Positions 7,441-37,493 of a stretch of DNA of 64,000 bases are shown piece by piece (positions within the stretch are counted from its first letter, which is position 1; every line of letters begins with the position of its first letter). A program made the translations under genes and the position numbers. The notes beneath the pieces are model-generated. The model had not been told where the DNA came from. It saw nothing but the letters and a program-made list of their open reading frames with translations, and searched no databases. This DNA is from an uncultured Bryobacterales bacterium. Its GTDB lineage: Bacteria > Acidobacteriota > Terriglobia > Bryobacterales > UBA6623. The DNA is taken from positions 3,052,435 to 3,116,434 of the forward strand of contig OY282420.1 in NCBI GenBank assembly GCA_958295955.1, written 5' to 3'.

Positions 7441-7614
7441 ATGCACGACATTCTCTGGAACGTTGCGCTGGTCATCGTCATCGCCGGCTCGGGAGCGGTC
7501 TTCACGCAGATCTACTGCAAGTCGGCCTATTTCACTTGCGCCGCCTGCAAGAGTCTCAACGCCAAACGCCGCAGCGCATGCCGCAAATGCGGCGCGCCTC
7601 TGGAGAAAAGATGA
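7441..7614 (+). CDS. 57-residue membrane-anchored zinc-ribbon protein
   Basis: This short ORF (57 codons plus TGA) has one hydrophobic segment (residues ~5-22, LWNVALVIVIAGSGAVF) followed by a C-x2-C-x10-C-x2-C pattern (CAAC at 33-36, CRKC at 47-50) in a basic context ending APLEKR. That is the layout of a small zinc ribbon tethered to the inner membrane with the ribbon in the cytoplasm. TAAAAT-N6-ATG upstream gives it its own promoter-like signal. It sits 66 bp after the phosphoesterase and 37 bp before the sulfatase. I know no named family for it, and its size means a chance ORF cannot be ruled out, although the paired cysteine motifs argue against that. Confidence 0.6.
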   Translation: MHDILWNVALVIVIAGSGAVFTQIYCKSAYFTCAACKSLNAKRRSACRKCGAPLEKR

Positions 7615-7651
7615 GGCGCCGCGCCGGCGTTCCGCTAACATGGGCGAAGCC

Positions 7652-9127
7652 ATGAAACGACTCGTTCCCGCCGTCTGCGCAACGCTTGCGCTCTTCTCCT
7701 GCGGCGGCGCGCCGGAAGGCGCTCCCGATGTCCGAAAACCCAACTTCGTGCTGATCTTCATCGACGACATGGGTTACGGCGACATCGGCGCCTTCGGCTC
7801 GACCGACAACCGCACGCCCCACCTCGACCGCCTCGCCGCCGAGGGCATGAGACTGACGAGTTTCTACGCGCACCCCGTCTGCACGCCCTCGCGCGCCGCG
7901 CTGATGACGGGCGCCTACCCCATGCGTAACGGCCTGCAAACCGGTTATTGGCATCCGGTGCTCATGCCCGGAGACCCGCAGGGCATCCATGCCGACGAGA
8001 TCACCGTAGCCGAAGCGCTCAAGGAGCAAGGCTACGCGACCGGCATTATCGGCAAATGGCATCTCGGAGACCAGCCCGAGTTCCTGCCCAACGCTCACGG
8101 CTTCGACTACTACTTCGGCCTGCCGTATTCGAACGACATGTCGCCTTTCCTGCCGCTGAACAAACGCAACCACCCGCCGCTGCCGCTGTTGCGCAACGGC
8201 GAAGTGATCCGCGAAGTGCCCGAAGACCAGTCTTTTCTCACCGGCGACTACACCACCGAAGCCCTCAAGTTCATCGACGCTCACCATGAGCAGCCGTTCT
8301 TCCTCTACATTCCGCACTCGATGGTTCACGTGCCGCTTTTCGCCGGCGACGACTTCCGCGGCCGGTCGAGCAACGGCATCCTGGGCGACGCGATCGAAGA
8401 ACTCGACTGGAGCGTCGGCGAAGTGCGCAAGAAGCTCGAAGAGCACGGCATCGCCGAGAACACGCTCGTCTTCTTCACTTCCGACAACGGCCCCGCGCGA
8501 GGCAGCGCCGGACCGCTTCGCGGACGCAAAGGCAGCACTTACGAAGGCGGCATGCGCGAGCCCGCCATCGCCTGGTGGCCGGGAACCGTTCCCGCCGGCA
8601 GCGAGTACGCCGACACGGCCTCGACCATGGACATTCTGCCGACTTTCGCCGCGCTGGCCGGCGGCGCGGTTCCCGCCGAGCGCATCGACGGCCACGACAT
8701 TTCGGCCATCCTCAAAGGCGCGACCGAGCGGCCTTCCGCATACGCAGCGTTCTACTACTACCGCGGCTACGAACTGCGCGCGGTGCGCAGCGGGAAGTGG
8801 AAACTGCATGCTGACGGCGCGCTCTACGATCTGGAAGTCGACATCGCCGAAAGCAACGACGTCGCCGCCGAGAATGTGGAAACGGCCGCCCGGCTCGAAG
8901 GTCTGCTCGAAAAAGGCCGCGAAGAAATCGGCGACGGCCCGGTGTGGCCCAACGACCCCGGAATCAGGCTGCCGGCGACGGCCCGGCCGATCGGCAAAAT
9001 TGACCGCGCGCCCCGGCTTTTGATTCCCCGGCGCGACGCCGAAGGCGAAGCGGCTCACGAACCGCCGATCCGCACCAAAACAACGTCTCCGCCGCCCAAA
9101 GACTATGTTCGCCCGGACAATTGGTAG
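7652..9127 (+). CDS. Sulfatase (arylsulfatase A-like), exported lipoprotein
   Basis: The product has 491 residues from the ATG at 7652; an ATG at 7640 is an alternative. The start MKRLVPAVCATLALFSCGG is a lipoprotein signal with Cys at 17. The type I sulfatase signature is complete: FIDDMGYGDIGAFG (metal Asp pair), VCTPSRAALMTG with Cys77 as the C-x-P-S-R residue converted to formylglycine, KWHLGD, and TSDNGPARGSAG near residue 280. The substrate is unknown; such enzymes in this lineage usually desulfate glycans. A formylglycine-generating enzyme is required for activity and none is in the window. The C-terminal ~60 residues (after PTTARPI-like sequence) are a proline/arginine-rich tail outside the catalytic domain. 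Confidence 0.88.
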   Translation: MKRLVPAVCATLALFSCGGAPEGAPDVRKPNFVLIFIDDMGYGDIGAFGSTDNRTPHLDRLAAEGMRLTSFYAHPVCTPSRAALMTGAYPMRNGLQTGYWHPVLMPGDPQGIHADEITVAEALKEQGYATGIIGKWHLGDQPEFLPNAHGFDYYFGLPYSNDMSPFLPLNKRNHPPLPLLRNGEVIREVPEDQSFLTGDYTTEALKFIDAHHEQPFFLYIPHSMVHVPLFAGDDFRGRSSNGILGDAIEELDWSVGEVRKKLEEHGIAENTLVFFTSDNGPARGSAGPLRGRKGSTYEGGMREPAIAWWPGTVPAGSEYADTASTMDILPTFAALAGGAVPAERIDGHDISAILKGATERPSAYAAFYYYRGYELRAVRSGKWKLHADGALYDLEVDIAESNDVAAENVETAARLEGLLEKGREEIGDGPVWPNDPGIRLPATARPIGKIDRAPRLLIPRRDAEGEAAHEPPIRTKTTSPPPKDYVRPDNW

Positions 9128-9181
9128 CGGGCGGGCAAAAGCCCCCGCGGCAAGACCGCCGAGCAATGCGGCGGCCGCCTC

Positions 9182-11824
9182 CTACTGCCGTTCAGGCTGC
9201 GGGGTCTTCTTCTTCTCGCCTTGGAAAACCCCAATTACGCGGCCGAAAAAGCCGCTTTTCTTCTTCTTCTTGCCTTCCTCCGCTTCGGGGTCGTCGTTCT
9301 CGGCGTTCTCGTCCTCGGCCGGCAGCGTCCAGCCGGCGACGCTGGTGGACACGCGGCCGGCGTTCTCGGCCATCTGAAACGCCGTTGGCTGCGAGCCCGC
9401 AATATAGACTTCCTTGACGCAACCGCTGCATGAGTGCGTGGCGAGCGCCTGCGCCTCAGGATCCACGTCGACGCCGATCACTCCCTCGGGCATGGCAAAC
9501 GGCTCGGGCGCGGCGTACTCCGGCAACTCGTGCGCCTGTTTCATGAAGCGCGCCCAAATCGGCAGCGCCGAGTGCGCCCCCTCGATGGACAAATCGGTGT
9601 TGTCGTCGAAACCGACCCAGACCACGCAGAGCAAATTGTTCGTAAACCCGGCGAACCAGCCGTCATCGTCCGTGCCGGTTTTGCCCGCCGCCGGAACCGT
9701 CAACTCGTAGGTAAACCGCGCGCGAACTCCCGTGCCCCGGCGGATCACGTCCTCGAGCATGCTGGTCACGATGTAGGCCACGCGGGGGTCCATGACCTCG
9801 CGGTCCCGATGCTGCGCCCGCAGCAGGCGGTCGCCGCCGCTGCTGCGCACCAACTTGACGAAATGCGGCTCTTTGCGAATGCCGCCGTTGACAAGGCTCG
9901 TGTATGCCCCGGCGATCTCCAGAGGAGTCGCTTCATAAGCTCCCAGCACCAGCGACGGCATCGCTTCCAAATCCTCGCCCATGCCGGCGCGGGCCGCCAT
10001 GTCCCTAACCCGTTGGAAGCCGGCCATCTCGCCGACCTTCACCGTGGCGATGTTGATGGAGCGCATCAGCGCCGTCCGCAGCGTGATCAGCCCGTGAATC
10101 TTGTTGCCGTGGTTCGATGGCTCGTAGGGCTTGTCGTCGAACCAGAACGTCGTCGGCACGTCGTCCACCAACGTGCCGGCCGTCAGCGGCTCCGGCGGCG
10201 GCTCGTAGGCGGTCCGCGCGTACTCGGGCATCTGCTCTGCGTAGCCCTGCTCGATCAGCAGCGCGCGCTCTTCGTCGAGCGCGCTGTCGATCGCCGCCGC
10301 ATAGACAAACGGCTTGAAAACCGAGCCCGGCTGGCGCTTGGCCAGTACGCGGTTCAACTGTGACCGGCCGTAGTCGCGCCCGCCGACAATCGCTTTCACT
10401 TCGCCCGTCTTGGGATCGAGCGCCACCAGGGCGGCCTGCGCCCGCGGCGGCTCCTCGACCCCGCGGAAACGCCTCTGTCGGGCGACCAGCTTGTCCACGT
10501 CCTCCATTCCGGCGCGCACCGCCTCGACGGCCATGTTCTGCAAGCGCTGGTCGAGCGTCGTATAGACCCAGTAGTTCTGCGTGATGAGCTCCTCCGAAGG
10601 GAAGTGCTCCCGCAGATTCTTGTTGACCAGGTCCACGTAATACGGCGCATCGCGCACCTCCAGGTGCCCGCGCAGGACCGTGACCTCCTGTTGCGCCGCG
10701 GCGTCGTGGGCCGCCCGGTCTATGTAGTCTTCGCGCAGCATGGCCGCCAGAACCTGATTGCGCCGATGCTTGGCCCGCTCGGGATGCCTGTACGGATTCA
10801 AATAGCTCGGCCCCTGCGGCAGGCCGGCCAGCAGCGCCGCTTCGACCAAAGTGACGTCGCGCACGTCCTTGTCGAAGTAAACGCGCGCCGCCTCGCCCAA
10901 CCCGTTCACGTTGAAACTGCCGCTGCGGCCCATGAAAATCTGATTCGAGTAGTACTCGAAAATCTTTTCCTTGCTGAGCCGGGACTCCAGTTGGAAAGCG
11001 ATCATCGCCTCCGCCGCCTTGCGGCTGTACGTCGACTCCGGGGTCAGGAAAAAGTTCCGCGCCAGTTGCTGCGTCAGCGTTGACGTGCCGCGCGGTCGGC
11101 GCCATTCGCGGATGCCGTCGACCGTCGCGCCGATCGTGCGAATCACGTCCAGACCGCGGTGCGAATAAAAGCGGTGGTCTTCAACGGCAATGACGGCGTC
11201 GACGAGATGCTGCGGATAGTCCTCGAATTGGAACAGCCGCCGCTTGGTGCGGTTGTCGTCGAAGAGGTTGGTGATCAGTTCCGGCTCCAGCTCGTAAGCA
11301 TCCAGTTCCCTGTTCGCATTGAGCGCGCGGAGGCCGACCACCTTGCCGTCTGCAAAGTCAATGGCGGCCGGTTCCCGGGCAAAATACGACAAGTCGCCCG
11401 GATAGATTTCGATTGACGCCGCGCTCATCCGATACCAGCCGAGCGCATTGTCTTTCGACTGCGTATATCCCGCCGCGCGCAGGCCGTTGGCGACATCGAG
11501 GGGCGCCAACTCGCTGCCGACATACACGGGCTTGGGCGCCGAGAGAATCCGCGCCGTGCGGTTGAACGCCCCCGAAGCCAAGCGTATGTCTATGATTTTT
11601 TTGTACTTCCAGTAGTAGTGATTGAAGACCGTCCCGCCGGCGACTGCCCCGATCAGGGCAAGGCCGAGCAGCACCTTGCCGGTCGGACTCGTCAGGAACT
11701 TGATCGGCCGCGCGATCCAGCCCGAGATGACAATCACGCGCCCGTCTTGCCGAGGCTTGGCGCCCGCGCCGTGTCGGGTTGTTTTGCGGGTAGGCATCGA
11801 ACGCTTCGTCGAATCTTTGCTCAT
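9182..11824 (-). CDS. mrcA: Penicillin-binding protein 1A-type bifunctional peptidoglycan synthase
   Basis: The product has 880 residues. A basic cytoplasmic tail is followed by one membrane anchor (~48-68), a small UB2H-like segment (~95-150), and a GT51 glycosyltransferase domain (~190-370) with catalytic Glu ~215 in VAVEDHRFYSH and the RGTSTLTQQLARN motif. The transpeptidase domain has nucleophile Ser ~501 in GSVFK, SIN at ~589-591 and KTGT at ~715-718. It polymerises glycan strands and crosslinks peptides on the periplasmic face. The last ~35 residues are lysine-rich (EEGKKKKKSGFFG...), an unusual basic C-terminus. The gene follows proS on the same strand with a 130-bp gap holding the palindrome GCGCCCGGGCGC (11903-11914). 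Confidence 0.95.
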   Translation of the reverse strand: MSKDSTKRSMPTRKTTRHGAGAKPRQDGRVIVISGWIARPIKFLTSPTGKVLLGLALIGAVAGGTVFNHYYWKYKKIIDIRLASGAFNRTARILSAPKPVYVGSELAPLDVANGLRAAGYTQSKDNALGWYRMSAASIEIYPGDLSYFAREPAAIDFADGKVVGLRALNANRELDAYELEPELITNLFDDNRTKRRLFQFEDYPQHLVDAVIAVEDHRFYSHRGLDVIRTIGATVDGIREWRRPRGTSTLTQQLARNFFLTPESTYSRKAAEAMIAFQLESRLSKEKIFEYYSNQIFMGRSGSFNVNGLGEAARVYFDKDVRDVTLVEAALLAGLPQGPSYLNPYRHPERAKHRRNQVLAAMLREDYIDRAAHDAAAQQEVTVLRGHLEVRDAPYYVDLVNKNLREHFPSEELITQNYWVYTTLDQRLQNMAVEAVRAGMEDVDKLVARQRRFRGVEEPPRAQAALVALDPKTGEVKAIVGGRDYGRSQLNRVLAKRQPGSVFKPFVYAAAIDSALDEERALLIEQGYAEQMPEYARTAYEPPPEPLTAGTLVDDVPTTFWFDDKPYEPSNHGNKIHGLITLRTALMRSINIATVKVGEMAGFQRVRDMAARAGMGEDLEAMPSLVLGAYEATPLEIAGAYTSLVNGGIRKEPHFVKLVRSSGGDRLLRAQHRDREVMDPRVAYIVTSMLEDVIRRGTGVRARFTYELTVPAAGKTGTDDDGWFAGFTNNLLCVVWVGFDDNTDLSIEGAHSALPIWARFMKQAHELPEYAAPEPFAMPEGVIGVDVDPEAQALATHSCSGCVKEVYIAGSQPTAFQMAENAGRVSTSVAGWTLPAEDENAENDDPEAEEGKKKKKSGFFGRVIGVFQGEKKKTPQPERQ

Positions 11825-26707: not shown

Positions 26708-27346
26708 ATGACGATAAAGGAATTGCAGAGAGAAATAGAGGACAGTCTGGAGGCCGTGCAAGCCATGCCCCATCTCCCCGCGGAGTTGCAGGGACTGCGC
26801 TTGTTGGTCCCGCATAAAGTCGATTGCCGGGTGACGATCCGCAACGTTCAGAACGGCGGCAGACTCCGCTCGGACGCTTCGGCGCAGGACTTCCGCCCCC
26901 AGGATTGCGAAGTGATTCTGCGCTTCGAGTCGTATGCGGACGACGCTGAAGAAGAATCCGCACACGGTTTCTCCGCCCCGGAGGATATCCCGCTGCGGCC
27001 CGAAATCGAAGAACTGATAGACGCTCTCGAGCGCATCGAAGGATCACGGAACTTCGTGGGGCTGAAGTGGTTCCGCGACCGCTTTCTCCCGGAGGAAGGC
27101 TATTCCTGGGCGGACGACCGCGGCTTCTGCGGGCATCTGATTCGAGAAGCAACGGAAGAAAAACTGTTGCTCACGAGCCAGGTTCCGAATCCCCGCGACC
27201 CCATGCAGCCGACCACGGCGATTCGCATCAACCGCAGCCATCCCCGGTTTCGGCAACTACGCGCGGAGCCGCGGCCGCGGGCGTTCAACCCCATCCGCGC
27301 GCGAGGCAAGCCGTTGTCGGCGACGGTGCGCGAGGACAGGAGGTGA
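26708..27346 (+). CDS. Unknown 212-residue protein
   Basis: I do not recognise a family. The ATG is preceded by GGAATGGAGACAAGTT, a usable ribosome-binding site. Residues ~1-95 start with a helix (IKELQREIEDSLEAV) and then strand-rich sequence (LRLLVPHKVDCRVTIRNVQN, CEVILRFESYADDAEEE). Residues ~100-175 (ELIDALERIEGSRNF, LKWFRDRFLPEEGYSWADDR, LIREATEEKLLLTSQ) alternate helices and short strands in a way that could be a winged helix. The C-terminal ~40 residues are basic and proline/arginine-rich. There is no signal peptide, so it is cytoplasmic. It opens the accessory island and its converging neighbour is an exported propeller protein, which gives no functional hint. Confidence 0.6.
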   Translation: MTIKELQREIEDSLEAVQAMPHLPAELQGLRLLVPHKVDCRVTIRNVQNGGRLRSDASAQDFRPQDCEVILRFESYADDAEEESAHGFSAPEDIPLRPEIEELIDALERIEGSRNFVGLKWFRDRFLPEEGYSWADDRGFCGHLIREATEEKLLLTSQVPNPRDPMQPTTAIRINRSHPRFRQLRAEPRPRAFNPIRARGKPLSATVREDRR

Positions 27347-27361
27347 GCCGGCCAACGAACC

Positions 27362-28303
27362 CTAGCGAATCACGTCTCCTTCGACGTCGAGCAGGATGTT
27401 GGCGCAGAGGTCGTTGCCGAACGTTTCCCAGTCCAGGAAGCTCCAAACGACTTCCTTCTTGCGGTTCACCTCGATAAGCTGCGGATACTTGCCTCCGGCG
27501 TGCGTATTGGTGATTACGACGTTGCCGTTGGGCAGGATCTGCAATTGCGTGACCCAGAAGAGCTTGATGCCGGGCAATTCCTCGCGCTCGACGCTCCAGA
27601 CGATCTCGCCGCCGGGATTCACTTCGAGGACGCGGTTGTTGTTCCCGCCGCCGATCATCGTATTGCCGTTGGGCAGGCGGTAAGCCGAATAGACGTGAAT
27701 TCCGTGGCCCTGGTGCGTCGGCGTCGCCGGCCCGGTCAACTCCATGCGGTATTCCCAGACAACCTTGCCGTCCCGGTTGTATTCGCGGACCGCGCCATCG
27801 TTCTCATGGGTGACGAGGTAGGTTCCCTGCGGCGTCTTGCGCACCAGGCGCGTGTCGCGGTGGTGGTGGGGCTTGTCCACTTGGAGCGGCGTCTCGGCAT
27901 GAATCTTGCCCTTGCGGTCGACCTCGACAATGCGCCTGTTGCCGGTCTCGGCGATCATCGTCAGCCCGTTGTCGAAGCGCTCGAAGCCGTGAATCTCGAC
28001 TTGGCCGTCGTATGACCCGGAGGGCTTCGATTCCCATTTCCAGACGACATCCTTCTCGGGCGTGACCTCGACGATGACGTTCCTTGCCGCAGGCGCCAGA
28101 ACGTTGCCGTTTTTGAGCAAGTGCAGGTCGTGAGCTACGGCGCCGTTTTCCCAGGTCCAGTCCACCGAGCCGTCCGGGTTGACGACCGCGATACGGCGTT
28201 TGTCCTGGGCCATCACGCGGTGCGCGGTCGTGGCTGCAAGCGCAGCCGCGCCGGCCAAGGCAGGCAGTCCCGCGGCGGCTTGGAGAAACTGTCGACGATG
28301 CAT
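27362..28303 (-). CDS. Exported arylsulfotransferase-like beta-propeller protein
   Basis: The product has 313 residues. The start MHRRQFLQAAAGLPALAGAA is a twin-arginine-type signal. The mature part consists of repeated ~45-residue blades with G-N-V/T hallmarks: HDLHLLKNGNVLAPAARNVI, RFDNGLTMIAETGNRRIVEV, YRLPNGNTMIGGGNNNRVLE, LQILPNGNVVITNTHAGGKY. These resemble arylsulfotransferase (ASST) or PQQ-type propellers. The segment THQGHGIHVYSAY may contribute active-site histidines, but a true sulfotransferase His cannot be confirmed. Its promoter and first codons are duplicated at 29454-29565 as part of the tandem repeat. TATAAT lies 6 nt before the ATG (28310-28315). Confidence 0.7.
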   Translation of the reverse strand: MHRRQFLQAAAGLPALAGAAALAATTAHRVMAQDKRRIAVVNPDGSVDWTWENGAVAHDLHLLKNGNVLAPAARNVIVEVTPEKDVVWKWESKPSGSYDGQVEIHGFERFDNGLTMIAETGNRRIVEVDRKGKIHAETPLQVDKPHHHRDTRLVRKTPQGTYLVTHENDGAVREYNRDGKVVWEYRMELTGPATPTHQGHGIHVYSAYRLPNGNTMIGGGNNNRVLEVNPGGEIVWSVEREELPGIKLFWVTQLQILPNGNVVITNTHAGGKYPQLIEVNRKKEVVWSFLDWETFGNDLCANILLDVEGDVIR

Positions 28304-28329
28304 GTCGAGATTATAGAACTACGGGCCGC
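28218..28329 (+). repeat. Tandem-duplication arm: 5' end and promoter of the propeller gene, original copy
   Basis: This 112-bp stretch covers the first ~28 codons and the promoter of the minus-strand propeller gene. It recurs at 29454-29565 with a handful of mismatches. Its last 41 bp recur a third time at 31215-31255 (two mismatches to this copy). It marks the left edge of the 1.24-kb duplicated unit. Confidence 0.9.
28310..28315 (-). promoter_or_regulatory. -10 hexamer TATAAT adjacent to start codon
   Basis: Read on the minus strand, a perfect TATAAT sits 6 nt before the ATG at 28303 of the propeller gene, with no Shine-Dalgarno. In the two repeat copies (29550 and 31240 regions) the hexamer is changed to CATAAT. 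Confidence 0.6.
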
Positions 28330-28348
28330 CGGGAGAAGGGCGGCGTGG

Positions 28349-29329
28349 TCAGTCGGTCAAATAGATTCCGGCGCCGACCAGCAGCGGCACGCCTTGCCCC
28401 GACACCCGCTTGACGAAGGCCGCCTTGCGGTGCCAGTTGCCCGTTTCGGGGTGGATCGCATGGTAGTAAATGTAGCTCTCGCCGAACGTCCCCGCTACGT
28501 CCACCATGTCCCGCCCGTTGAACCTCTCCTTGGGTTCGCGGCCCCACTCGACAACGGGCTCCCCGTTTATCCTGATCGGATGCCCTGAGAACAACTGCCT
28601 GCCCGTCATGTCCATGCCGAACACGTAAATCGAACCGGCGCTCCAGCGCGGATCGCTTTCCATCAGCAGCGTGGCGAAGTAGCCCTTCGATTCGACCTCC
28701 AGGGCGGCGCAACGGACGAACTCCTCCAGTGTTTCCAGCGACGGCTCGGCCGCCAGCGCCGCGGCGTTGACTTGCTCGGCGTAGCAGGTTCCGGGCAGGT
28801 CGCTGCTATAAATCCCCGAGCCGATCATGGCGGAGGTTCCTTCCCAGTCGATGCGTATCAGATAGGTAGCCTTGGGTTCGACTAGGGCGTCGGCCGGGTT
28901 GGGGAAACCGTAATAGACCCAAGCGCGGTCGGTGAATTCGAACGTACGATTCCACTCTTCGAGCAAGTCCGTGTCGAAGCGGTCGGTGAGATCGCCCCAA
29001 GGCGTCCCCGCGCGGCTCGGGTCGGCGCCGAAAACGAGGGGAGTGCGCGGATGCTCGCCGTCGGCGGCCGGATTCGTGACGAATATGTAGAACTGCCCGC
29101 TCTTCCAGCGCGCGTCTTCGTGAAAAGCGCGCCGGGCTTCCTCGAAGCCCATTTCCTGCACGTATTCGTAAGCGCACTGCACAAACGCCTCGAGATCGGT
29201 CGTAGAACGGATGGCGGAGGCGGAGACCGACTTCTCCGCGCAAGGGATGGGCGCCGCCGCGGAGGCTTGCGTCATGGTTCCCGCAAGCAGCAGAACTGCA
29301 AGGGGAGCAATCGCTTTCCAAATGCTCAT
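28349..29329 (-). CDS. Secreted double-Cache-domain protein, copy 1
   Basis: The product has 326 residues. A signal peptide (MSIWKAIAPLAVLLLAGTMT, cleavage near ASAAA) is followed by two tandem Cache-like modules. Module 1 (~45-175) has FVQCAYEYVQEMGFEEARRA, FHEDARWKSGQFYIFV and an IGSGIYSSD end. Module 2 (~190-326) has FVRCAALEVESKGYFATLLM and LVGAGIYLTD. Cache modules bind small ligands outside the cytoplasm, normally as the sensor half of chemoreceptors or kinases. Here no membrane or signalling domain is attached, so the protein is a free periplasmic ligand binder. Copy 2 (31275-32240) is nearly identical in module 2 but diverged in the middle of module 1. TACAAT lies 7 nt before the ATG. 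Confidence 0.8.
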   Translation of the reverse strand: MSIWKAIAPLAVLLLAGTMTQASAAAPIPCAEKSVSASAIRSTTDLEAFVQCAYEYVQEMGFEEARRAFHEDARWKSGQFYIFVTNPAADGEHPRTPLVFGADPSRAGTPWGDLTDRFDTDLLEEWNRTFEFTDRAWVYYGFPNPADALVEPKATYLIRIDWEGTSAMIGSGIYSSDLPGTCYAEQVNAAALAAEPSLETLEEFVRCAALEVESKGYFATLLMESDPRWSAGSIYVFGMDMTGRQLFSGHPIRINGEPVVEWGREPKERFNGRDMVDVAGTFGESYIYYHAIHPETGNWHRKAAFVKRVSGQGVPLLVGAGIYLTD

Positions 29330-29330
29330 G

Positions 29331-29454
29331 CAGGCGATTGTATTGCAATCCGCCGCGCCTTGTCAATGGGCCGGCAGCCTGGAACAGTGCGACAACTTAA
29401 CTGCGGACGCTATGGAAAATCGGTCGACGGAATCGCCGGACATTCCTCAAATCC
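29331..29454 (+). repeat. Tandem-duplication arm: sulfatase 5' end, truncated copy
   Basis: This stretch matches 32241-32363, the upstream region and first codons of the sulfatase at 32322. The two share the short gap after the Cache gene, the ATGGAAAATCGGTC start and the ACATTCCTCAAAT segment. A 1-nt insertion near 29430 shifts the frame after MENRST. The match stops abruptly at ~29454, where propeller-gene sequence begins; this is the duplication junction. Confidence 0.88.
29337..29342 (-). promoter_or_regulatory. -10-like hexamer TACAAT adjacent to start codon
   Basis: On the minus strand TACAAT lies 7 nt before the ATG of Cache copy 1. The same spacing and hexamer are kept at 32248-32253 before copy 2, so the promoter was duplicated with the gene. 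Confidence 0.5.
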
Positions 29455-29456
29455 GG
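29412..29456 (+). pseudogene. Truncated sulfatase gene start
   Basis: The ATG and the first ~6 codons (MENRST) equal the start of the sulfatase at 32322. A single extra base then changes the frame, and after ~29454 the sequence is unrelated to the sulfatase. It is a by-product of the tandem duplication and cannot encode an enzyme. Confidence 0.8.
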
Positions 29457-29565
29457 TGCGCGGTCGTGGCTGCAAGCGCAGCCGCGCCGGCCAAGGCGGG
29501 CAGTCCCGCGGCGGCCTGAAGAAACTGTCGACGATGCATGTCGAGATTATGGAGCTACGGGCCGC
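29454..29565 (+). repeat. Tandem-duplication arm: propeller-gene 5' end, second copy
   Basis: This stretch matches 28218-28329. Its last 41 bp (29525-29565) are identical to 31215-31255, so the foreign block 29566-31214 is bounded by perfect 41-bp direct repeats. Confidence 0.9.
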
Positions 29566-29682
29566 TAGGGGGGATTCGAGATGCGGCGCGGGCGGCTCCG
29601 GCTCCGCTTGATTGTCCATCAAGCCCAACTCCTGGGCGAAGTCCACCTCATCGACATCCCAACAATCCGCCGGCGAACTCAT
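29566..29682 (-). pseudogene. Truncated ORF downstream of the N12-type methylase fragment
   Basis: The ATG at 29682 overlaps the methylase stop (ATGA), as in a translationally coupled operon. The readable part is MSSPADCWDVDEVDFAQELG followed by an acidic, proline-rich stretch (~39 residues). It then runs into the 41-bp repeat, where the original sequence has been lost. The product is unknown. Its truncation fixes the left breakpoint of the foreign block at ~29566. Confidence 0.55.
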
Positions 29683-30952
29683 GCGCACAACTTCTGTTCC
29701 TTGATGCTCTTGCGCAAGAGGGCCATTTTCTGTTCTTCGTTCATGCTTTCGGGGTCGCCCCCGAATTTTCTCACCAGGCGGTTCAACTTCTCTTTTCGTT
29801 CGGCGGCGGAAAGTTGCTTCGGCTTGAACCGCGAAACCAGGTAAGACTTCACTTCCGCGGCAATCTCTTCGGGTGAAAGCCGGCTCTCTACGTTGTAGCC
29901 GCCTCCCCTATACATCGTCCCGGTCAACGTCTCTTTACCGATGATATGCACCCTCCCGGCTTTCACGACCTCGTTCACCCGGTAGGATAATTCGATCGTG
30001 CCCTTTTTCGATTTTGCATCTTTCTCGTAGGTCTCGCGCACCGTGTTCTTGAAGGGGAGGCTCAGCGACGTTTTCCCCGGCTGCTTTCGTCGGAAAACCA
30101 GCAGATCGGTGACCACTTCGGTCTTGGCGTTTTGCGCGAAGGCGTTACTCGGCAGCCGCACCACGGCTATCAGGTTGGCCAACTCCGCCATCCGCTTCCG
30201 CCCATTCGATGAGTTCGCATCGAGAGTGGAGTGCGTCGTAATCAAAAACGCCAGACCGCCCGGACGCACCGCCTGCAAGGTTTTGATAATCACCGCGTTG
30301 TCCAGCGAATACTGCCGTCTGCCCACCATCATGCGCGTCTTGCCGAAAGGGACGTTGCCCACCGCCGCATCGAAAGCGTCTTCCGCGTCGAAGTCTTTCA
30401 AGTCCTCGCAGCGCACTTGATCTTTCGGGTAGAGGTAGCTTGCAATCTGCGCGCTTAGCGGCTCGCGCTCGATCATCGTCATCTCGACGTCTTGCGCTTG
30501 CGGCGGAATCGATCCGGCAAAGATGCCCACGCCCGCCCCCGGCTCCAATATCCTGCCGCTCGCGACGCCCCCGGCGATGGCGCCTTCCCAGATCGCGCGC
30601 GCGATGTCCGGCGTCGTGTAGTGCGCATTCTGCATCGACAGCTTCGTGAAGAGGTAGCCGCCCCCCTTCGTTCGGTTCGCCAGGTCTTTGACCGCATGCT
30701 CCAGGTCAGGGTCAAAATCCGGCGACCGATCATCGAAGGCCGCTTTGATCCCTCCCGTGCCGCAGTATTTCGCCAATACCGCCTGTTGCTCGGCGGTAAG
30801 TTCCCCCGGCTGCAGATTCCGCGCGTTGATCTCGTTCAGGACTTCTACCGCAGCGCGCAAATTGCTCCGCGTCGAAGTCGCGTGCTCCCCCGGCTTGTAG
30901 GCGAAGCGCGCCCGCGGATCCCACTGCGGAACCTCCGGCTTGGGAGTCGGGG
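29679..30952 (-). pseudogene. N12-class adenine DNA methylase fragment, 5' end lost or frameshifted
   Basis: About 420 meaningful residues run from LTPTPKPEVPQWDPRARFAY to the stop at 29679. Motifs: HYTTPDIARAIWEGAI and GRILEPGAGVGIFAGSIP (S-adenosylmethionine site), then DAAVGNVPFGKTRMM, an N-x-P-F catalytic motif, and GLAFLITTHSTLDA. This is the methylase region of the very large methylase/helicase polyproteins of plasmids and phages. Only the methylase plus a short lysine-rich tail is left; no helicase follows. In this frame I see no ATG or GTG near the expected N-terminus. The upstream 83-residue ORF ends in the other frame at 30953, so a frameshift probably split one gene. Probably non-functional. 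Confidence 0.65.
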
Positions 30953-31204
30953 TCAGATCTCCGGGTTTTCCAGCGCCTTCCGCCGCTCGATCCGCAACTC
31001 CAGATCCTCCGGCTCCAGGTACTCGTCCGGCGCTTCCGCCATCTGTATCTCTCTGACCTGGGACTGCAGCGTGTTCACCAGCGCCGGCCCGTCCGCCCAC
31101 GGCACTTCGCCCCGCTGCACCCGCCGCGTCACTTCCGTCACGATGTCCCCCATCTGCTCCCGGTTCTCCGGTTGGTTCAGCCACTCTTCCATCGGTCTTG
31201 CCAT
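30953..31204 (-). CDS. 83-residue ORF, probable N-terminal part of the split methylase gene
   Basis: The sequence begins MARPMEEWLNQPENREQMGD and ends LELRIERRKALENPEI before a TGA at 30953-30955. Its amino-acid composition is balanced and helical, unlike the overlapping methylase-frame extension, which turns into Gly/Arg/Ala-rich filler. A +1/-1 shift near 30955 would fuse it to the methylase frame. It may instead be a genuine separate small gene whose stop abuts the methylase. The 41-bp repeat begins 10 bp upstream of its ATG, so its promoter is missing or hybrid. Confidence 0.45.
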   Translation of the reverse strand: MARPMEEWLNQPENREQMGDIVTEVTRRVQRGEVPWADGPALVNTLQSQVREIQMAEAPDEYLEPEDLELRIERRKALENPEI

Positions 31205-31214
31205 CTTCAGCCTC

Positions 31215-31255
31215 CTGTCGACGATGCATGTCGAGATTATGGAGCTACGGGCCGC
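31215..31255 (+). repeat. 41-bp direct repeat, right boundary of the foreign block
   Basis: It is identical over 41 bp to 29525-29565 and differs at two positions from 28289-28329. It contains the start region and -10 of the propeller gene but no propeller coding sequence follows. Repeats of this length are longer than usual insertion-sequence target duplications. Confidence 0.9.
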
Positions 31256-31274
31256 CGGGGGAAGAGCGGCGCGG

Positions 31275-32240
31275 TCAGTCGGTCAAATAGATTCCGGCGC
31301 CGACCAGCAGCGGCACGCCTTGCCCCGACACCCGCTTGACGAAGGCCGCCTTGCGGTGCCAGTTGCCCGTTTCGGGGTGGATCGCATGGTAGTAAATGTA
31401 GCTCTCGCCGAACGTCCCCGCTACGTCCACCATGTCCCGCCCGTTGAACCTCTCCTTGGGTTCGCGGCCCCACTCGACAACGGGCTCCCCGTTTATCCTG
31501 ATCGGATGCCCTGAGAACAACTGCCTGCCCGTCATGTCCATGCCGAACATGTAAATCGAACCGGCGCGCCAGCGCGGATCGCTTTCCATCAGCAGCGTGG
31601 CGAAGTAGCCCTTCGATTCGACCTCCAGGGCGGCGCAACGGACGAGCTCCTCCAGTTTTTCCAGCGACGGCTCGGCCGCCAGCGCCGCGGCGTTGACTTG
31701 CTCGGCGTAGCAGGTTCCGGGCAGGTCGCGTCTGTAGATCCCCGCGCCGATCACGGCATCGTTCCCGTCCCAGTCGATGCGCATCGTGTAGCTGGCCTTC
31801 GGCTCGGTCAGGTTGTCATCCGGGTTGTGGAACTCGTAATAGACCCAGCCGCGGTCGACAAGACCGAACACGCGATGGAATTCGTCGTTCAGGTCCGTGT
31901 CGAAGCCGTCGGTTAGGTCGTCCCAAGGCGTCCCTTCGCGGCTCGGAGCCGGAGGCTGAACGAGAGGGGTGTGCGTAGAAGGGTTCAGGACGAATATGTA
32001 GAACTGACCGCTTCTCCAGCGCGCATCTTCGTGAAAGGCTCGGTGGGCTTCTTCGGTACCCATTTCCTGCGCGTATTCGTAAGCGCACTGCACAAACGCC
32101 TCGAGATCGGCCGCAGAACGGATGGCGGCGGCGGAGACCGACTTTTCCGCGCAAGGGATGGGCGCCGCCGCGGGGGCTTGCGTCATGGTTCCCGCAAGCA
32201 GCAGAGCCGCAAGGGAAGCAATCGCTTGCCAAATGCTCAT
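31275..32240 (-). CDS. Secreted double-Cache-domain protein, copy 2
   Basis: The product has 321 residues, paralogous to 28349-29329 by tandem duplication. The signal peptide is MSIWQAIASLAALLLAGTMT. Residues 1-84 differ from copy 1 at about 11 positions and the second Cache module (last ~145 residues) at only four. The intervening ~90 residues (FVLNPSTHTPLVQPPAPSRE through GAGIYRRD) are heavily substituted and 5 residues shorter. The sharp boundaries suggest selection or gene conversion acting on the presumed ligand pocket of module 1. It is secreted and has no attached signalling domain. TACAAT lies 7 nt before the ATG. It is divergent from the sulfatase at 32322. Confidence 0.8.
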   Translation of the reverse strand: MSIWQAIASLAALLLAGTMTQAPAAAPIPCAEKSVSAAAIRSAADLEAFVQCAYEYAQEMGTEEAHRAFHEDARWRSGQFYIFVLNPSTHTPLVQPPAPSREGTPWDDLTDGFDTDLNDEFHRVFGLVDRGWVYYEFHNPDDNLTEPKASYTMRIDWDGNDAVIGAGIYRRDLPGTCYAEQVNAAALAAEPSLEKLEELVRCAALEVESKGYFATLLMESDPRWRAGSIYMFGMDMTGRQLFSGHPIRINGEPVVEWGREPKERFNGRDMVDVAGTFGESYIYYHAIHPETGNWHRKAAFVKRVSGQGVPLLVGAGIYLTD

Positions 32241-32363
32241 GTGGGCGATTGTATTGCAATCCGCCGCGCCTTGTCAATGGGCCGGCAGCCTGGAACAGTG
32301 CTACAACTAACTGAGGACGCTATGGAAAATCGGTCAACGGATCGCCGGACATTCCTCAAATCG
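32241..32363 (+). repeat. Tandem-duplication arm: sulfatase 5' end, intact copy
   Basis: It pairs with 29331-29454. Here the sequence continues into the full sulfatase gene, so this is the ancestral right edge of the duplicated unit. Confidence 0.88.
32248..32253 (-). promoter_or_regulatory. -10-like hexamer TACAAT before Cache copy 2
   Basis: On the minus strand TACAAT lies 7 nt before the ATG at 32240, the same arrangement as at copy 1. There is no Shine-Dalgarno. Confidence 0.5.
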
Positions 32364-33713
32364 GGGGCGGGGACGGTCGCTGCAAGTTTGCTCGGATGCT
32401 CTGCGCCGCGAGGAAGTAAGCAACCCAATATCGTCATCGTTATCGCCGACGACCTGGCTTGGCGCGACATCGGCTGCTACGGCGCGACGCAGGTCTCGAC
32501 GCCCCATATCGACAAGCTGGCCGCCGAGGGCATGCGCTTCGAGCGCGCGTTCACGGCCACGGCGATGTGCGCCCCGATGCGGCAGCAGATGTACACGGGG
32601 ATCTTTCCGGTGCGCAACGGCGCATACCCCAATCATTCGCAGTCGAAGCCGGGCGTGAAGAGCATCCCGCACTATTTCGAGCCGTTGGGTTACCGCGTGG
32701 CGCTGAGCGGCAAGAAACACTTCGGACCGCCGGAAAACTATCCGTTCGAGTTCCTCGGAGAGGGCAAGGACATCGACTACGCAGCGATCGACGAGTTCAT
32801 CGCGCGCGACCCCGAGCAACCGTACTTTCTCGTGGCCTGCTCCAACGAGCCGCATCTCCCCTGGAACCGCGGCGATGCGGCGAAGTTCGACTCGGCGGCG
32901 TTCGCGGTGCCGCCCTATCTGGTCGATACCCCCGAAACGCGGCAGGCGATGGCCGCCTATTATGCCGAAATCGAATATCTCGACGGACAGACCGGCCGCC
33001 TGATGGCGGCGGTGGAAAAATCGGGGCAGGCCGACAATACGATTTTCATTTTCTGCAGCGAGCAGGGCGTGCAGTTTCCGCACGGCAAATGGACCTGCTA
33101 CGACCTCGGTCTGCGCCAAGGCTGGATCGTTCGCTGGCCGGCGCGCGTCAAGGCGGGCTCGACGGCGAAGGCGATGGTCCAAGGCGTGGACGCTTTGCCG
33201 ACCTTGCTCGAAGCGGCGGGAGGCGACCCTGCCGTCCACGATTTCGACGGCAAGAGTTATCTCGCCGTGCTGGAAGGCGGCGCCGACCGGCACGCCGACT
33301 ATGCGTATGGGGCGCATACCACGCGGGGCATCATTCAAGGCAGCCGCTGCTACCCGGTGCGGTCGGTCCGCGACGAGCGGCACAAGTTGATCTGGAATAC
33401 CAACTACGCGACGAAGTTCCAAAACATTCTCACGGAATCGGACGGCTCGGGGTATTGGTCGAGTTGGGTGCGGAAGGCAAAGACCGACGCGGAGGCGGCG
33501 GCTCTCGTGAAGATGTATCAACAACGGCCGGAGTTCGAGTTTTACGATGTCGTTGCGGACCCGTTCGAGTTGACCAATCTTGTCGAGCAGCCGGAGCATG
33601 CCCAAAAGATTGCGCTCCTGAAGGCGAAGCTCGACGCCTGGATGGAGCAGCAGGGCGATAAGGGCAACGAAACCGAGCTGGCCGTCAAGGCGCACAAGAC
33701 CGGAATCGTATAG
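32322..33713 (+). CDS. Sulfatase, sulfamidase-like, twin-arginine exported
   Basis: The product has 463 residues. MENRSTDRRTFLKSGAGTVA is a Tat-type signal ending in a possible lipobox (LLGC). Sulfatase features: VIVIADDLAWRDIGCYG (metal site) and AMCAPMRQQMYTG with Cys83 as the formylglycine precursor in C-x-P-x-R. Met replaces the usual Ser of C-x-P-S-R. The distal metal motif is FCSEQGVQFPHGKWTCYD in place of SDNG...K. SEQG-FP-GKW resembles N-sulfoglucosamine sulfohydrolase-type members, so an N- or O-sulfated glycan is a plausible substrate. TACAAC and GAGGA before the ATG serve as promoter and ribosome-binding site. It is first in a four-gene co-directional secreted set. Confidence 0.85.
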   Translation: MENRSTDRRTFLKSGAGTVAASLLGCSAPRGSKQPNIVIVIADDLAWRDIGCYGATQVSTPHIDKLAAEGMRFERAFTATAMCAPMRQQMYTGIFPVRNGAYPNHSQSKPGVKSIPHYFEPLGYRVALSGKKHFGPPENYPFEFLGEGKDIDYAAIDEFIARDPEQPYFLVACSNEPHLPWNRGDAAKFDSAAFAVPPYLVDTPETRQAMAAYYAEIEYLDGQTGRLMAAVEKSGQADNTIFIFCSEQGVQFPHGKWTCYDLGLRQGWIVRWPARVKAGSTAKAMVQGVDALPTLLEAAGGDPAVHDFDGKSYLAVLEGGADRHADYAYGAHTTRGIIQGSRCYPVRSVRDERHKLIWNTNYATKFQNILTESDGSGYWSSWVRKAKTDAEAAALVKMYQQRPEFEFYDVVADPFELTNLVEQPEHAQKIALLKAKLDAWMEQQGDKGNETELAVKAHKTGIV

Positions 33714-33797
33714 ATGCGGCAGGCCGCGGCGTGGGCAAGGTTCCCGCAGGGGCGAAATTTGTTGACGCCGCGGCGGGTCGATGCGTATGCTGCCATT

Positions 33798-36209
33798 GTG
33801 CGCTTTGGGACGCTCATCTTGCTGTCCGCTTGGTTTGCGCCGCCGAGTTGGGCCGAGGTGTCTCTCGAGCCGCCCGAAATTCACTTGCAAGGACCGGGCG
33901 CAACGCAAACATTTCTCATTCGCGGCGGCAGCGGCTGCACGGTAGCGAGCAACGCTTCCAACATTGTCGGCGTTGACGGGAACCGTCTGCTCGGACGGCG
34001 CGCCGGCGCGGCGGAGCTTTCCGTGCGCTGCGCCGAGGGATCGAGCCGGGCCGCGGTGCGCGTGGGAGAGGGCGCTGCCGCCGTCGATATCGGTTTCGAG
34101 CGCGATTTGCTGTCGATCTTCACTACCAAGGGCTGCAACGGCTCGGCCTGTCACGGCTCGCCCGCCGGGCAGAACGGTTTCAAGCTGTCGCTCTACGGCT
34201 CCGACGCGAAAGCCGATCACGAGATGATCGTGCGTCGCGACAACGGCCGCCGGATTTCTCTGCAAGCGCCGGAAGCATCTCTGCTGCTGGCCAAGCCGTC
34301 CTTCCGCATAGCCCACGGCGGCGGTCAGCTCATGACTCCCGAGTCGGACGAATACCGCACCATTTTGAACTGGGTCCGCCAAGGCGCGGGCTATGGGTCG
34401 CCGGGCGTCCGCTTGGAACGGCTGGAGATGTATCCCGGCGAAAGCGTGCTCGCCGGCGCCGGGGCGGCGCAGCCGCTCGTCGTCATCGGCAGGCTCTCGG
34501 ACGGCTCGACGCGCGATATGTCGGACGAAGTGCGTTACGCCGTCAACGATGCCGCCGTCGTGTCCGCAGTCGAAGACGGCCGGGTGACCGCGCAGGGGCG
34601 GGGCCTGACCACGGTAACCGCGCGGGCGATGGGCAAGGTGGCCACGGCGCAGTTCATCGTGATCGACGAGGCCGCCGGGGACGGATACCGGGCGCTCCGC
34701 CCGAACAATTTCATCGACGAGCACGTTTTTCGCAAGCTGCGCGAAGTCAACATCGAGCCGTTCCCGTTGACTGCGGATCGAACCTTCGCGCGGCGCGTTT
34801 TCCTCGACGCGGCGGGCGTTTTACCGACGACCGACGAGGCCGAAAGTTTCGCGGCAAGCCGGGATCCGAACAAACGGTCGAAGCTGATCGACCGCCTGCT
34901 GGAGCGCGAGGAGTACGCGACGCACTGGTTGGTCAAATTCGAGGACTGGTTCCGCAATTCGCAGTACTATTCGCAGGGCCGCACCAACGGCTCGTACAAG
35001 CGCTGGCTGCACGACTTGATTCGCGGGGACAAGCCCTACGATGCGGCGGTGCGGGAAATGCTCACCGCGGTCGGGGACACGACCGTACGGCCGGCCGGGA
35101 ATTTCTGGCACCCGGCAATTGACTTCATGCTGAAAAAGTTCGAGATCGAGAAGGCCGTGCCGACGGTGACGCGCCTCTTTCTCGGACAGCGCATCGAATG
35201 CGCGCAGTGCCATAACCATCCGCTGGAAAACCTGACCCAGGACGACTTTTACGGCATGGCGGCGTTCCTGGCGCGGATGAAGGTCAAGCACGGCTACGGA
35301 CAGTACCGCCGCATCTGGTACAACGAGCGGCGCGGCGAAGCGGCGCACCCGCTGACGGGAAAGCCTGTCGCGCCCAAATTTCTGGACGGCGCGGCCGCGC
35401 ACATTCCGCCGGGCGTCGACCGCCGCGAAGTCTTGGCCGATTGGATTACGCGCGGCCGGAAGATGCAGTTCGCCCGCGCTACGGTCAACCGCGTCTGGTA
35501 CGAGTATTTCGGCCGCGGCATTGTCGAGCCGTTCGACGACTTCCGTTCGACGAACCGCGCGACCCATCCGCAACTGCTCGACGATCTGGCGCGGCTTTTC
35601 ATCGACTCCGGTTTTCGATTCAAGGCCGTCCACCGGGCGATCCTCAACTCGAAGACGTATCAACTCGGCGCGCACACTCCCGACCGCGCCGGCGGCGAGG
35701 ACGCGCTGGAGGAAATTCTGTTCGCGCGCTACGTCCCCCGCAAGCTGCCCGCCGAGGTCTTGCTCGACGCGATTTCGCAGGTGACCGGCAGCCCGGAGGA
35801 GTTTCGCGGCTATCCTCCGGGAACGTCTCCGAAAGAGTTGATCGCCAACATCGGGGCAACCTATTTTTTGACCACGTTCGGCCGGCCGCGGCGCGATGTC
35901 ATGGAAGCGCGAGCGAATGCCCCCTCGCTCGCGCAGGCGCTGCACATGATGAACGGCGACGTGCTGCAGCAAAGACTCGCCGCGCAAGACAACATACTCG
36001 GCGCCCTCATCGACCGCGGCTTGACCGATCGGGAAATCGTTCGCAAGCTCTACGTGCGCGCATATTCCGCCGCGCCGGATGAGCAGAAGAGCGCGGCGGT
36101 CGAACGCTACCTCGCGGCGGAACGGAACGCGGGACGGAGCCGCCGGCGGGGACTTGAGAACGTCTTGTGGGCTATGCTGAATGCGAAGGAGTTTCAGCTG
36201 AACCGCTGA
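33798..36209 (+). CDS. Ig-like/cytochrome/DUF1549-DUF1553 secreted protein
   Basis: The product has ~803 residues from the GTG at 33798, chosen because it gives a clean signal peptide (MRFGTLILLSAWFAPPSWA); the frame is open back to an ATG at 33714. Domains in order: Ig-like BIG2-type segment; a heme-site candidate GCNGSACHGSPAGQNGFKLS (C-x4-C-H, common in this subgroup); a second BIG2-like stretch; DUF1549 (~310-500) with CAQCHNHPLENLTQDDFYG (C-x2-C-H); and DUF1553 (~560-800) with MNAKEFQLNR at the end. These proteins are usually paired with DUF1501, as here, and are thought to act in periplasmic oxidation of polysaccharides or sugars. No enzymatic activity is established for the family. Confidence 0.82.
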   Translation: MRFGTLILLSAWFAPPSWAEVSLEPPEIHLQGPGATQTFLIRGGSGCTVASNASNIVGVDGNRLLGRRAGAAELSVRCAEGSSRAAVRVGEGAAAVDIGFERDLLSIFTTKGCNGSACHGSPAGQNGFKLSLYGSDAKADHEMIVRRDNGRRISLQAPEASLLLAKPSFRIAHGGGQLMTPESDEYRTILNWVRQGAGYGSPGVRLERLEMYPGESVLAGAGAAQPLVVIGRLSDGSTRDMSDEVRYAVNDAAVVSAVEDGRVTAQGRGLTTVTARAMGKVATAQFIVIDEAAGDGYRALRPNNFIDEHVFRKLREVNIEPFPLTADRTFARRVFLDAAGVLPTTDEAESFAASRDPNKRSKLIDRLLEREEYATHWLVKFEDWFRNSQYYSQGRTNGSYKRWLHDLIRGDKPYDAAVREMLTAVGDTTVRPAGNFWHPAIDFMLKKFEIEKAVPTVTRLFLGQRIECAQCHNHPLENLTQDDFYGMAAFLARMKVKHGYGQYRRIWYNERRGEAAHPLTGKPVAPKFLDGAAAHIPPGVDRREVLADWITRGRKMQFARATVNRVWYEYFGRGIVEPFDDFRSTNRATHPQLLDDLARLFIDSGFRFKAVHRAILNSKTYQLGAHTPDRAGGEDALEEILFARYVPRKLPAEVLLDAISQVTGSPEEFRGYPPGTSPKELIANIGATYFLTTFGRPRRDVMEARANAPSLAQALHMMNGDVLQQRLAAQDNILGALIDRGLTDREIVRKLYVRAYSAAPDEQKSAAVERYLAAERNAGRSRRRGLENVLWAMLNAKEFQLNR

Positions 36210-36221
36210 GTTGACGCTGCG

Positions 36222-37493
36222 ATGCTGCTTTCGCAAATGCGTTCGCGCTACAGCCGCCGCGATGTGTTGCGGCTGGGCGGCATGGCGTTCGGCGGCATTT
36301 CGCCGGCGCGCATGCTGCAGGCGTCGACCGGGCGCAAGGATGTCTCCTGCCTGATTTTTTTCCAGCAGGGCGGTTTGTGCCAGCACGACTCGTTCGACCC
36401 CAAGCCGGAAGCGCCGGGCGAGATTCGAGGCGGCTTCGGGACGATCCCCACAACGCAGCCGGGGGTTCGCTTCAGTGAATTGATGCCGCGTCTGGCAAGG
36501 GACTTCAACAAGTTTTCCGTTATCCGCTCGATGTACTCGCGCGAAGCGATTCACGAGAAAGCCAAGCAATACATTTTCTCCGGGCAGCAGCCGAACAATG
36601 CGTTCAAGCATCCGGTTTACGGCTCGGTCGTCGCCCGCGAGTTGGGCGCCCGCAACGGCTTGCCGCCGTTCGTGGTCATTCCGAAGAAGGATATCTGCGC
36701 GGATGCCGGATTCCTGGGCGCGGCTTACGATCCGTTCATTACCGGCGACCCCAACGCGGAGAACTTCTCGGTGCAGGATCTGACGCTGCCCACCGGACTC
36801 GGTCTCGAAGAGGCCGAGGGCCGCGCGAAACTGCTTGCGGCGCTCGATTCCTCCATCGAGCGCATGGAAAAATCTCAGGTTGTCGACGGCATGGAGCATT
36901 TTTACCGGAAAGCGCTGGATATGGTCAGCTCGCCCCAGGCCAAGAAAGCGTTCGATCTGGGGGCGGAGCCGGACAAGCTGCGCGATGCCTACGGGCGGAC
37001 CACCGCCGGGCAGGGAGCGCTGCTCGCGCGGCGGCTGATCGAGGCCGGCGTGCGGCTGGTGTCGCTCTTCCACGGCGGATACGACACGCACACCGATAAC
37101 GATAAGACCAATCGAGAGCTTTACCCCGAGTTCGACCGGGCGTTCTCGACGCTGCTGCACGACATGGGCAGCCGCGGATTGCTGGAGAACACTCTGGTGC
37201 TGGCGCTCGGCGAGTTCGGGCGCACCCCGAAGATCAATCACTCGGCAGGACGCGATCACTGGCCCGGCGTGTTTTCGATCGCGGCGGCGGGCGCCGGAGT
37301 TCCGGGAGGGCAGGTGATCGGGGCGTCCGACGGCAAGGGCGCGGAACCGGTCGACAGGGCGGTTTCGGTTGAAGACCTCGGAGCGACGGTTTACAAGAAG
37401 CTCGGCATCGACTGGAACGAGGAATACCACGCCAACGGGCGTCCGGTGAAGATCAATGACGGCGGCGCCCCGATTCGCGAGTTGTTCGCTTAG
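36222..37493 (+). CDS. DUF1501 protein, twin-arginine exported
   Basis: The product has 423 residues. A twin-arginine signal RYSRRDVLRLGGMAFGG lies near residues 9-25. The DUF1501 domain (sulfatase/alkaline-phosphatase-like fold) spans the rest: CLIFFQQGGLCQHDSFDPKP, LARDFNKFSVIRSMYSREA, TLVLALGEFGRTPKINHSAG and GRDHWPGVFSIAAAGAGV. Asp and His residues in QHDSFD, HGGYDTHTDND and RDHW could bind metal. It lies 12 bp after the DUF1549/DUF1553 gene, its standard partner, so the two probably act together outside the cytoplasm. The function of the pair is not established. Confidence 0.85.
   Translation: MLLSQMRSRYSRRDVLRLGGMAFGGISPARMLQASTGRKDVSCLIFFQQGGLCQHDSFDPKPEAPGEIRGGFGTIPTTQPGVRFSELMPRLARDFNKFSVIRSMYSREAIHEKAKQYIFSGQQPNNAFKHPVYGSVVARELGARNGLPPFVVIPKKDICADAGFLGAAYDPFITGDPNAENFSVQDLTLPTGLGLEEAEGRAKLLAALDSSIERMEKSQVVDGMEHFYRKALDMVSSPQAKKAFDLGAEPDKLRDAYGRTTAGQGALLARRLIEAGVRLVSLFHGGYDTHTDNDKTNRELYPEFDRAFSTLLHDMGSRGLLENTLVLALGEFGRTPKINHSAGRDHWPGVFSIAAAGAGVPGGQVIGASDGKGAEPVDRAVSVEDLGATVYKKLGIDWNEEYHANGRPVKINDGGAPIRELFA

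Follow-up and report, generated by a model that had tools for sequence, protein, structure and literature searches.

The window that we analyzed, 64,000 nucleotides of contig OY282420.1 from an uncultured Bryobacterales bacterium (assembly GCA_958295955.1, positions 3,052,435 to 3,116,434 of the forward strand), contains a tandemly duplicated block whose copies, A and B, carry one double-Cache gene each: Cache gene A (wA) and Cache gene B (wB). The divergence between these two genes is best explained, with a probability that we set at about 0.7, by partial concerted evolution, in which the constant domain is homogenized by gene conversion, whereas pocket segments that are old and distinct persist. 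The two genes are members of a patchily distributed, multicopy family of double-Cache binding proteins that look secreted. To describe the divergence we divided each gene into an N-terminal part (N), a variable middle comprising the pocket half of the first Cache domain (V), and the second, C-terminal Cache domain (C), the segment limits being approximate; all the features are listed in Table 1.

Divergence along the Cache genes

The identity between the copies proved to be very uneven along the aligned block. The flanks are about 92–96% identical, that is, different by some 5–6%, while the synonymous divergence (dS) between wA and wB falls to 0 in the final 150 codons and reaches 0.6–1.3 in the approximately 110 middle codons; and third codon positions differ in 37 of 107 codons in V against none of 145 in C (Fisher p = 2e-16). 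The nonsynonymous changes are concentrated in V, where the ratio of nonsynonymous to synonymous divergence (dN/dS) is about 0.4, so that both copies look constrained. The corresponding third-position differences are 43/111 in V versus 3/145 in C for two genes of a five-gene array (a3/a4), and 49/111 versus 11/141 for two genes of another (b1/b2), the two arrays being designated a and b. A matching run of 50 polymorphic third positions spans codons 212–360, with a permutation p of 0.0005, which value is the minimum reachable. The first-pass annotation of this DNA had judged the duplication to be recent: the flanks do fit a fairly recent event, but V is far more and C far less diverged than these flanks, and a simple recent duplication is rejected because dS is uneven along the gene. 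A duplication that is taken for recent by eye can thus hold several ages within a single kilobase.

A protein search of the same genome recovered 14 double-Cache genes at five loci—the window pair, two five-gene tandem arrays (C1:3210767-3215866 and C1:295818-300813), and two single genes—so that the earlier description of a lone protein falls, with ten of the 14 lying within the other two arrays. The similarity in C follows the locus: within loci the identity is 99% for the window pair, 98–99% in array a (about 86% for a1), and 93–96% in array b, whereas between loci the window pair shares 80–84% identity with array a and some 62% with array b. The identity in V, for its part, is 62–77% even within loci, recent duplicates excepted. 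The family is present in 14 of the 41 genomes searched (the source genome, its family, and its order), with 6–20 matches each, and in three of the 297 genomes of a phylum-wide sample, namely, the source genome and two of another family. The named relatives belong to metagenome-assembled genomes labeled Bryobacterales, Acidobacteria, or Aminicenantes, and no plasmid-borne Cache gene was found.

A distant lineage of another family, represented by two genomes, repeats the pattern: one gene (G084t2) is 69, 68, and 87% identical in N, V, and C, respectively, to its tandem neighbor (G084t3), and 95, 93, and 86% identical to its orthologue (G110t2). The C segment of G084t2 is accordingly at least as near to that of its neighbor as to that of its orthologue, which statement does not hold for N or V. 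In trees of 28 genes (support given as approximate likelihood-ratio test/ultrafast bootstrap), V formed three clades that each join genes across two families (94.5/95, 94.2/95, and 91.5/93), whereas C clustered by family (97.8/100 and 95.5/95); and the V and C data reject each other's tree (approximately unbiased test, p = 1.5e-46 and 7.6e-61). Both signs of gene conversion are therefore present—a part of the gene that is more alike between paralogues, and a conflict between trees. Either the V types predate the split of the families and C was homogenized later, or V has been exchanged.

Pocket residues and predicted function

Of the extracellular sensor modules in prokaryotes, Cache domains are the most common (PMC5062169). 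The presence of two Cache genes in the duplication was borne out by Pfam, the scores for dCache_2 (PF08269, cut-off 26.5 bits) and sCache_2 (PF17200, cut-off 25 bits) being 36.5 and 32.4 for wA, and 45.7 and 42.1 for wB. The product of Cache gene A would be secreted, to judge from the appearance of its N-terminus. The family profile matched the known structures 4k08 (1.8e-08) and 5g4y (2.6e-04), along with 2qhk and 4exo, all of which are sCache_2 chemoreceptor domains. A Foldseek search with the structure model of Cache gene B returned 5g4y and TlpB among its matches, with TM-scores by target of about 0.45–0.55; the whole-protein matches were mostly generic PAS/LOV tandem folds of low TM-score, to which we give little weight. 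On the modeled fold, V probably corresponds to the pocket-forming strands and loops of the first domain.

The propionate bound by PscD is contacted by Tyr90, His103, Tyr143, and Lys156 within walls formed by Trp92, Trp145, and Phe126, with Met129 nearby (PMC5062169). We placed the equivalents by profile alignment to 5g4y, the MAFFT placement of residue 90 being shifted by one and hence not used. Across the 14 paralogues, the sites equivalent to Tyr90, Tyr143, and Lys156 mostly retain these residues, while His103 is replaced in nearly all copies (the residue there being F, Q, Y, H, or W), position 126 carries any of eight residues (L, N, S, I, F, Y, H, or W), and position 129 any of seven (W, F, Y, Q, R, T, or S); the window pair itself differs at 103 (F/Q), 126 (L/N), and 129 (W/F). 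Anchors that are mostly kept, together with shape-determining residues that vary, fit carboxylate-type ligands of differing shape. The residues that set the ligand of a Cache domain are still poorly predictable, and tandem paralogues having a nearly identical scaffold and differing pockets constitute a natural panel for the mapping of specificity.

The window domains resemble the sCache_2/dCache_2 sensors—PscD of Pseudomonas syringae (5g4y/5g4z) and Adeh_3718 (4k08)—in their profile match and in the carboxylate anchors, mostly retained in the first domain, but differ in being free-standing and in tandem and in the variation at the equivalents of His103, Phe126, and Met129. Since the Pfam scan of the window proteins found Cache domains only, and no membrane or signaling domain, they do not classify, by that scan and with no transmembrane predictor applied, as chemoreceptors or histidine kinases. 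The same module, by family profile, occurs elsewhere joined to solute-binding domains of the ATP-binding-cassette type, and one such fusion is in this genome: at the end of a five-gene array (L011:4772-6769) a Cache pair is followed by an SBP_bac_3-like domain, although the match is weak (23.4 versus a cut-off of 26.4), and in relatives the fused domain is SBP_bac_5 or SBP_bac_3, the SBP_bac_5 fusions (L031:3444-7040, L040:4850-8470, and L016:5689-8310) having one or two Cache pairs in proteins of about 870–1,210 residues. These fusions link the module to the capture of solutes rather than to chemotaxis, although the two window proteins lack any solute-binding domain in the Pfam scan.

Alternatives and proposed course of events

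If the flank difference is taken as the date of the duplication, then C has been homogenized since that event, and V is older, having been brought in or retained by recombination. Under partial concerted evolution we propose that an illegitimate duplication, whose junction shows hardly any homology, would have copied the Cache gene along with the starts of both neighbors; that later recombination between the copies would have held the N-terminus and the second Cache domain close to identity, the pocket segment of the first domain having either stayed divergent or become so by exchange; and that a foreign methyltransferase operon fragment would have been inserted immediately 3' of Cache gene B, with a 41-bp repeat as its trace. 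Each protein would be exported, with its first domain binding a carboxylate-like small ligand set by the variable pocket residues, which proposal we hold with moderate to low confidence; the uniform second domain would then have a common job, most likely dimerization or docking to a shared partner, for example an ATP-binding-cassette-type solute-binding protein. An old duplication in which everything except V was homogenized is a less simple alternative, since the conversion tracts would have to include the vestigial neighbors.

Nearly identical ends around a divergent pocket middle would offer a natural route to many specificities on one scaffold. Extending this idea, we consider it possible, though distinctly the less probable outcome, that the family constitutes a bacterial constant/variable receptor system, in which intragenomic recombination would retain old pocket cassettes, common to distant lineages, on lineage-specific constant scaffolds or shift them from one such scaffold to another, and a single genome would thereby combine many ligand specificities with one common partner. 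A partial parallel is found in the mammalian Toll-like receptor genes TLR1 and TLR6, likewise tandem paralogues in which gene conversion is reported to limit the divergence in parts of the gene (PMC2077338); here, however, the genes are bacterial, secreted by appearance, and present as 14 copies at five loci, with types of binding segment common to distant families.

Several observations weigh against partial concerted evolution or the function attached to it. No donor of V was found for the window pair, the best candidate being a match of wB codons 136–195 to array a at 82%, and exchange may have run in either direction. For array b the run test gives a weak result, which may mean an older homogenization there. 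In the other family, the contrast between paralogue and orthologue in C (87% versus 86%) is narrow by itself and rests on a support of 88.9/95; and the approximately unbiased test covered two trees only. Nor is the pattern universal: a large inverted pair of multi-Cache genes from another genus (L029:4164-6986 and 7453-10440; L030:4380-7400 and 7871-10690) is homogenized in N and V but not in C, the last C-terminal segment having diverged. The structure model of Cache gene B, with two Cache-like domains, each a helix with an antiparallel sheet after it, at about residues 43–169 and 193–318, is of moderate confidence (mean predicted local distance difference test score, 67.6), and the small carboxylates that the first-domain pockets should bind, by homology, are predicted ligands.

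Among the rival explanations, cassette exchange with an external pool—V passing horizontally from one lineage to another and entering resident frames by homologous recombination—is unlikely, though less so than the others. It would account for the V types common to distant families, for the patchy distribution across the phylum sample, and for the lean of wB codons 136–195 toward array a; but the V divergence between families, about 20–24% at the nucleotide level, is so large that any exchange cannot have been recent, and ancient paralogy followed by homogenization of C gives the same trees without transfer. We regard as improbable a recent tandem duplication in which the gene middle then diverged fast under positive selection, without recombination: whereas the nonsynonymous changes do concentrate in the middle and the flanks do point to a fairly recent duplication, selection on the protein cannot raise dS in V to such values while leaving C unchanged, the dN/dS is below 1, and the V types are common to distant families. 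We also consider quite improbable a constraint on synonymous sites, whether from overlapping signals, codon usage, or RNA structure, that would hold C identical without gene conversion. Although C is the more conserved half at every locus of the genome, the window genes depart in C from array a by about 20% and from array b by about 38%, and the similarity in C follows the locus and the genome instead of the function; the strong conflict between the V and C trees argues in the same direction.

An assembly artefact, either a chimera or a collapsed repeat, in favor of which the completeness of 95.5% in three contigs might be cited, is very improbable because the copies differ from each other, the window lies within a 4.44-Mb contig, and the same mosaic recurs at several independent loci and genomes. 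Finally, a diversity-generating retroelement or similar mutator, which the position of a variable segment within a constant frame might bring to mind, is rejected, since the changes affect synonymous and nonsynonymous sites alike and include indels, and no reverse transcriptase (PF00078) was detected in the genome by a search that did detect its controls.

The duplicated block, its insert, and its neighbors

Table 1. Features of the duplicated block and the adjoining genes (positions within the window)
Feature	Position	Strand	Basis or remark
Propeller-type gene, intact; Mala_s_1-like/arylsulfotransferase-like repeats; source of the propeller-start fragment	27362..28303	-	Open reading frame (ORF), Pfam
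Copy A of the block: propeller start, Cache gene A, intergenic region, truncated sulfatase start	28217..29454		Repeat search, alignment
Recently homogenized tract, copy A, C-terminal Cache domain (partner ~31263-31729 in copy B)	28337..28803		96–100% per 50-bp bin
Cache gene A, 326 amino acids (aa), two tandem Cache domains	28349..29329	-	ORF; dCache_2 and sCache_2 above cut-off
Variable segment, copy A, pocket half of first Cache domain (partner ~31730-32041 in copy B)	28804..29130		52–88% per bin
Vestigial sulfatase start, frameshifted relative to the intact gene, joined to propeller start	29412..29453	+	Sequence comparison
Copy B, part 1: vestigial propeller start	29454..29565	-	Repeat to 28218-28329, 96%
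41-bp direct repeat, left insert flank	29525..29565		Exact match to 31215-31255
Insert, 1,649 bp of unique DNA, foreign operon fragment, same strand as Cache gene B	29566..31214	-	Single copy in genome
N6-adenine methyltransferase open frame, stand-alone, true start inside frame	29679..31229	-	PHROG 10089, E = 3.5e-67
83-aa ORF at insert start, preceded by AGGAGG	30953..31204	-	ORF list, sequence
41-bp direct repeat, right insert flank	31215..31255		Exact match to 29525-29565
Copy B, part 2: intergenic region, Cache gene B, intergenic region, sulfatase start	31256..32363		Repeat search, alignment
Cache gene B, 321 aa	31275..32240	-	ORF; dCache_2, 45.7 bits; two-domain structure model
Sulfatase gene, intact, with twin-arginine-translocation-like signal	32322..33713	+	Pfam Sulfatase, 1e-39

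The tandem duplication of the block was confirmed by parallel direct repeats (28289-28588/31215-31514, 98%; 29070-29369/31981-32280, 91%; 28218-28329/29454-29565, 96%), with the sulfatase start recovered in two pieces (29398-29431/32308-32341 and 29432-29466/32341-32375), as well as by a global alignment of copy A (28218-29454) to copy B minus its insert (1,110 identities in 1,240 columns); a chance origin is excluded from the length alone. The lengths first given for the copies, 1,236 and about 1,219 bp, agree with 28218-29453 and with 29455-29565 plus 31256-32363. Near 29454, as the first-pass annotation had it, the sulfatase start is fused to the propeller start (...CAAATC joined to CGGTGCGCGG...), with at most one to two bases common to both sides, which near-zero shared sequence suggests an illegitimate event. 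Since the sulfatase piece of copy A is frameshifted and the propeller piece of copy B measures only about 110 bp, both are vestiges.

The insert that had been noted in one of the copies does interrupt copy B, between 29565 and 31256, and lies immediately 3' of Cache gene B, whose stop is near 31275, on the same strand, so that read-through from that gene is possible. The flanking 41-bp repeat reads CTGTCGACGATGCATG...GGGCCGC, both copies being exact. A length of 41 bp is long for a transposase-made repeat; either filling-in at a staggered break or one crossover within a short homology may account for it. The 83-aa ORF had no family match in the Pfam and PHROG profile searches; of a third ORF, likewise on the minus strand, only the beginning is present, cut by the left junction. 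Along with the adenine methyltransferase, these ORFs give the insert the look of an operon fragment from a mobile element. The methyltransferase region resembles that of DarB-like and plasmid helicase-methyltransferases through PHROG 10089, but the insert differs in that it has no helicase part, stands alone, and is flanked by the 41-bp repeats; its identity to the plasmid helicases is about 35% or less, and the match is restricted to positions 1491–1918 of a 4647-position profile, so that it is not assigned to DarB. No homologue of the insert was found among 60 genomes of the order, and none was confirmed in viral contigs by a short-peptide scan, the relatives recovered being distant ones on plasmids. 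Neither a transposase nor an integrase was seen within 29525-31255.

With respect to the neighbors, the orthologues of the propeller gene in five genomes of the same family are 66–69% (search) or 68–71% (tblastn) identical, and none has a Cache or sulfatase relative beside it within a 12-kb stretch; the sulfatase relatives in those genomes are only about 40% identical. The proposal of an ancestral propeller/Cache/sulfatase order is therefore not supported, a conserved locus of this composition is rejected, and the arrangement seen in the window is probably of recent date and appears to be lineage-specific. At 26708-27346 is a 212-aa ORF without a match in Pfam or PHROGs, and directly downstream of the sulfatase, at 33714-37493, is a PSCyt2/PSD1 and DUF1501 gene pair.

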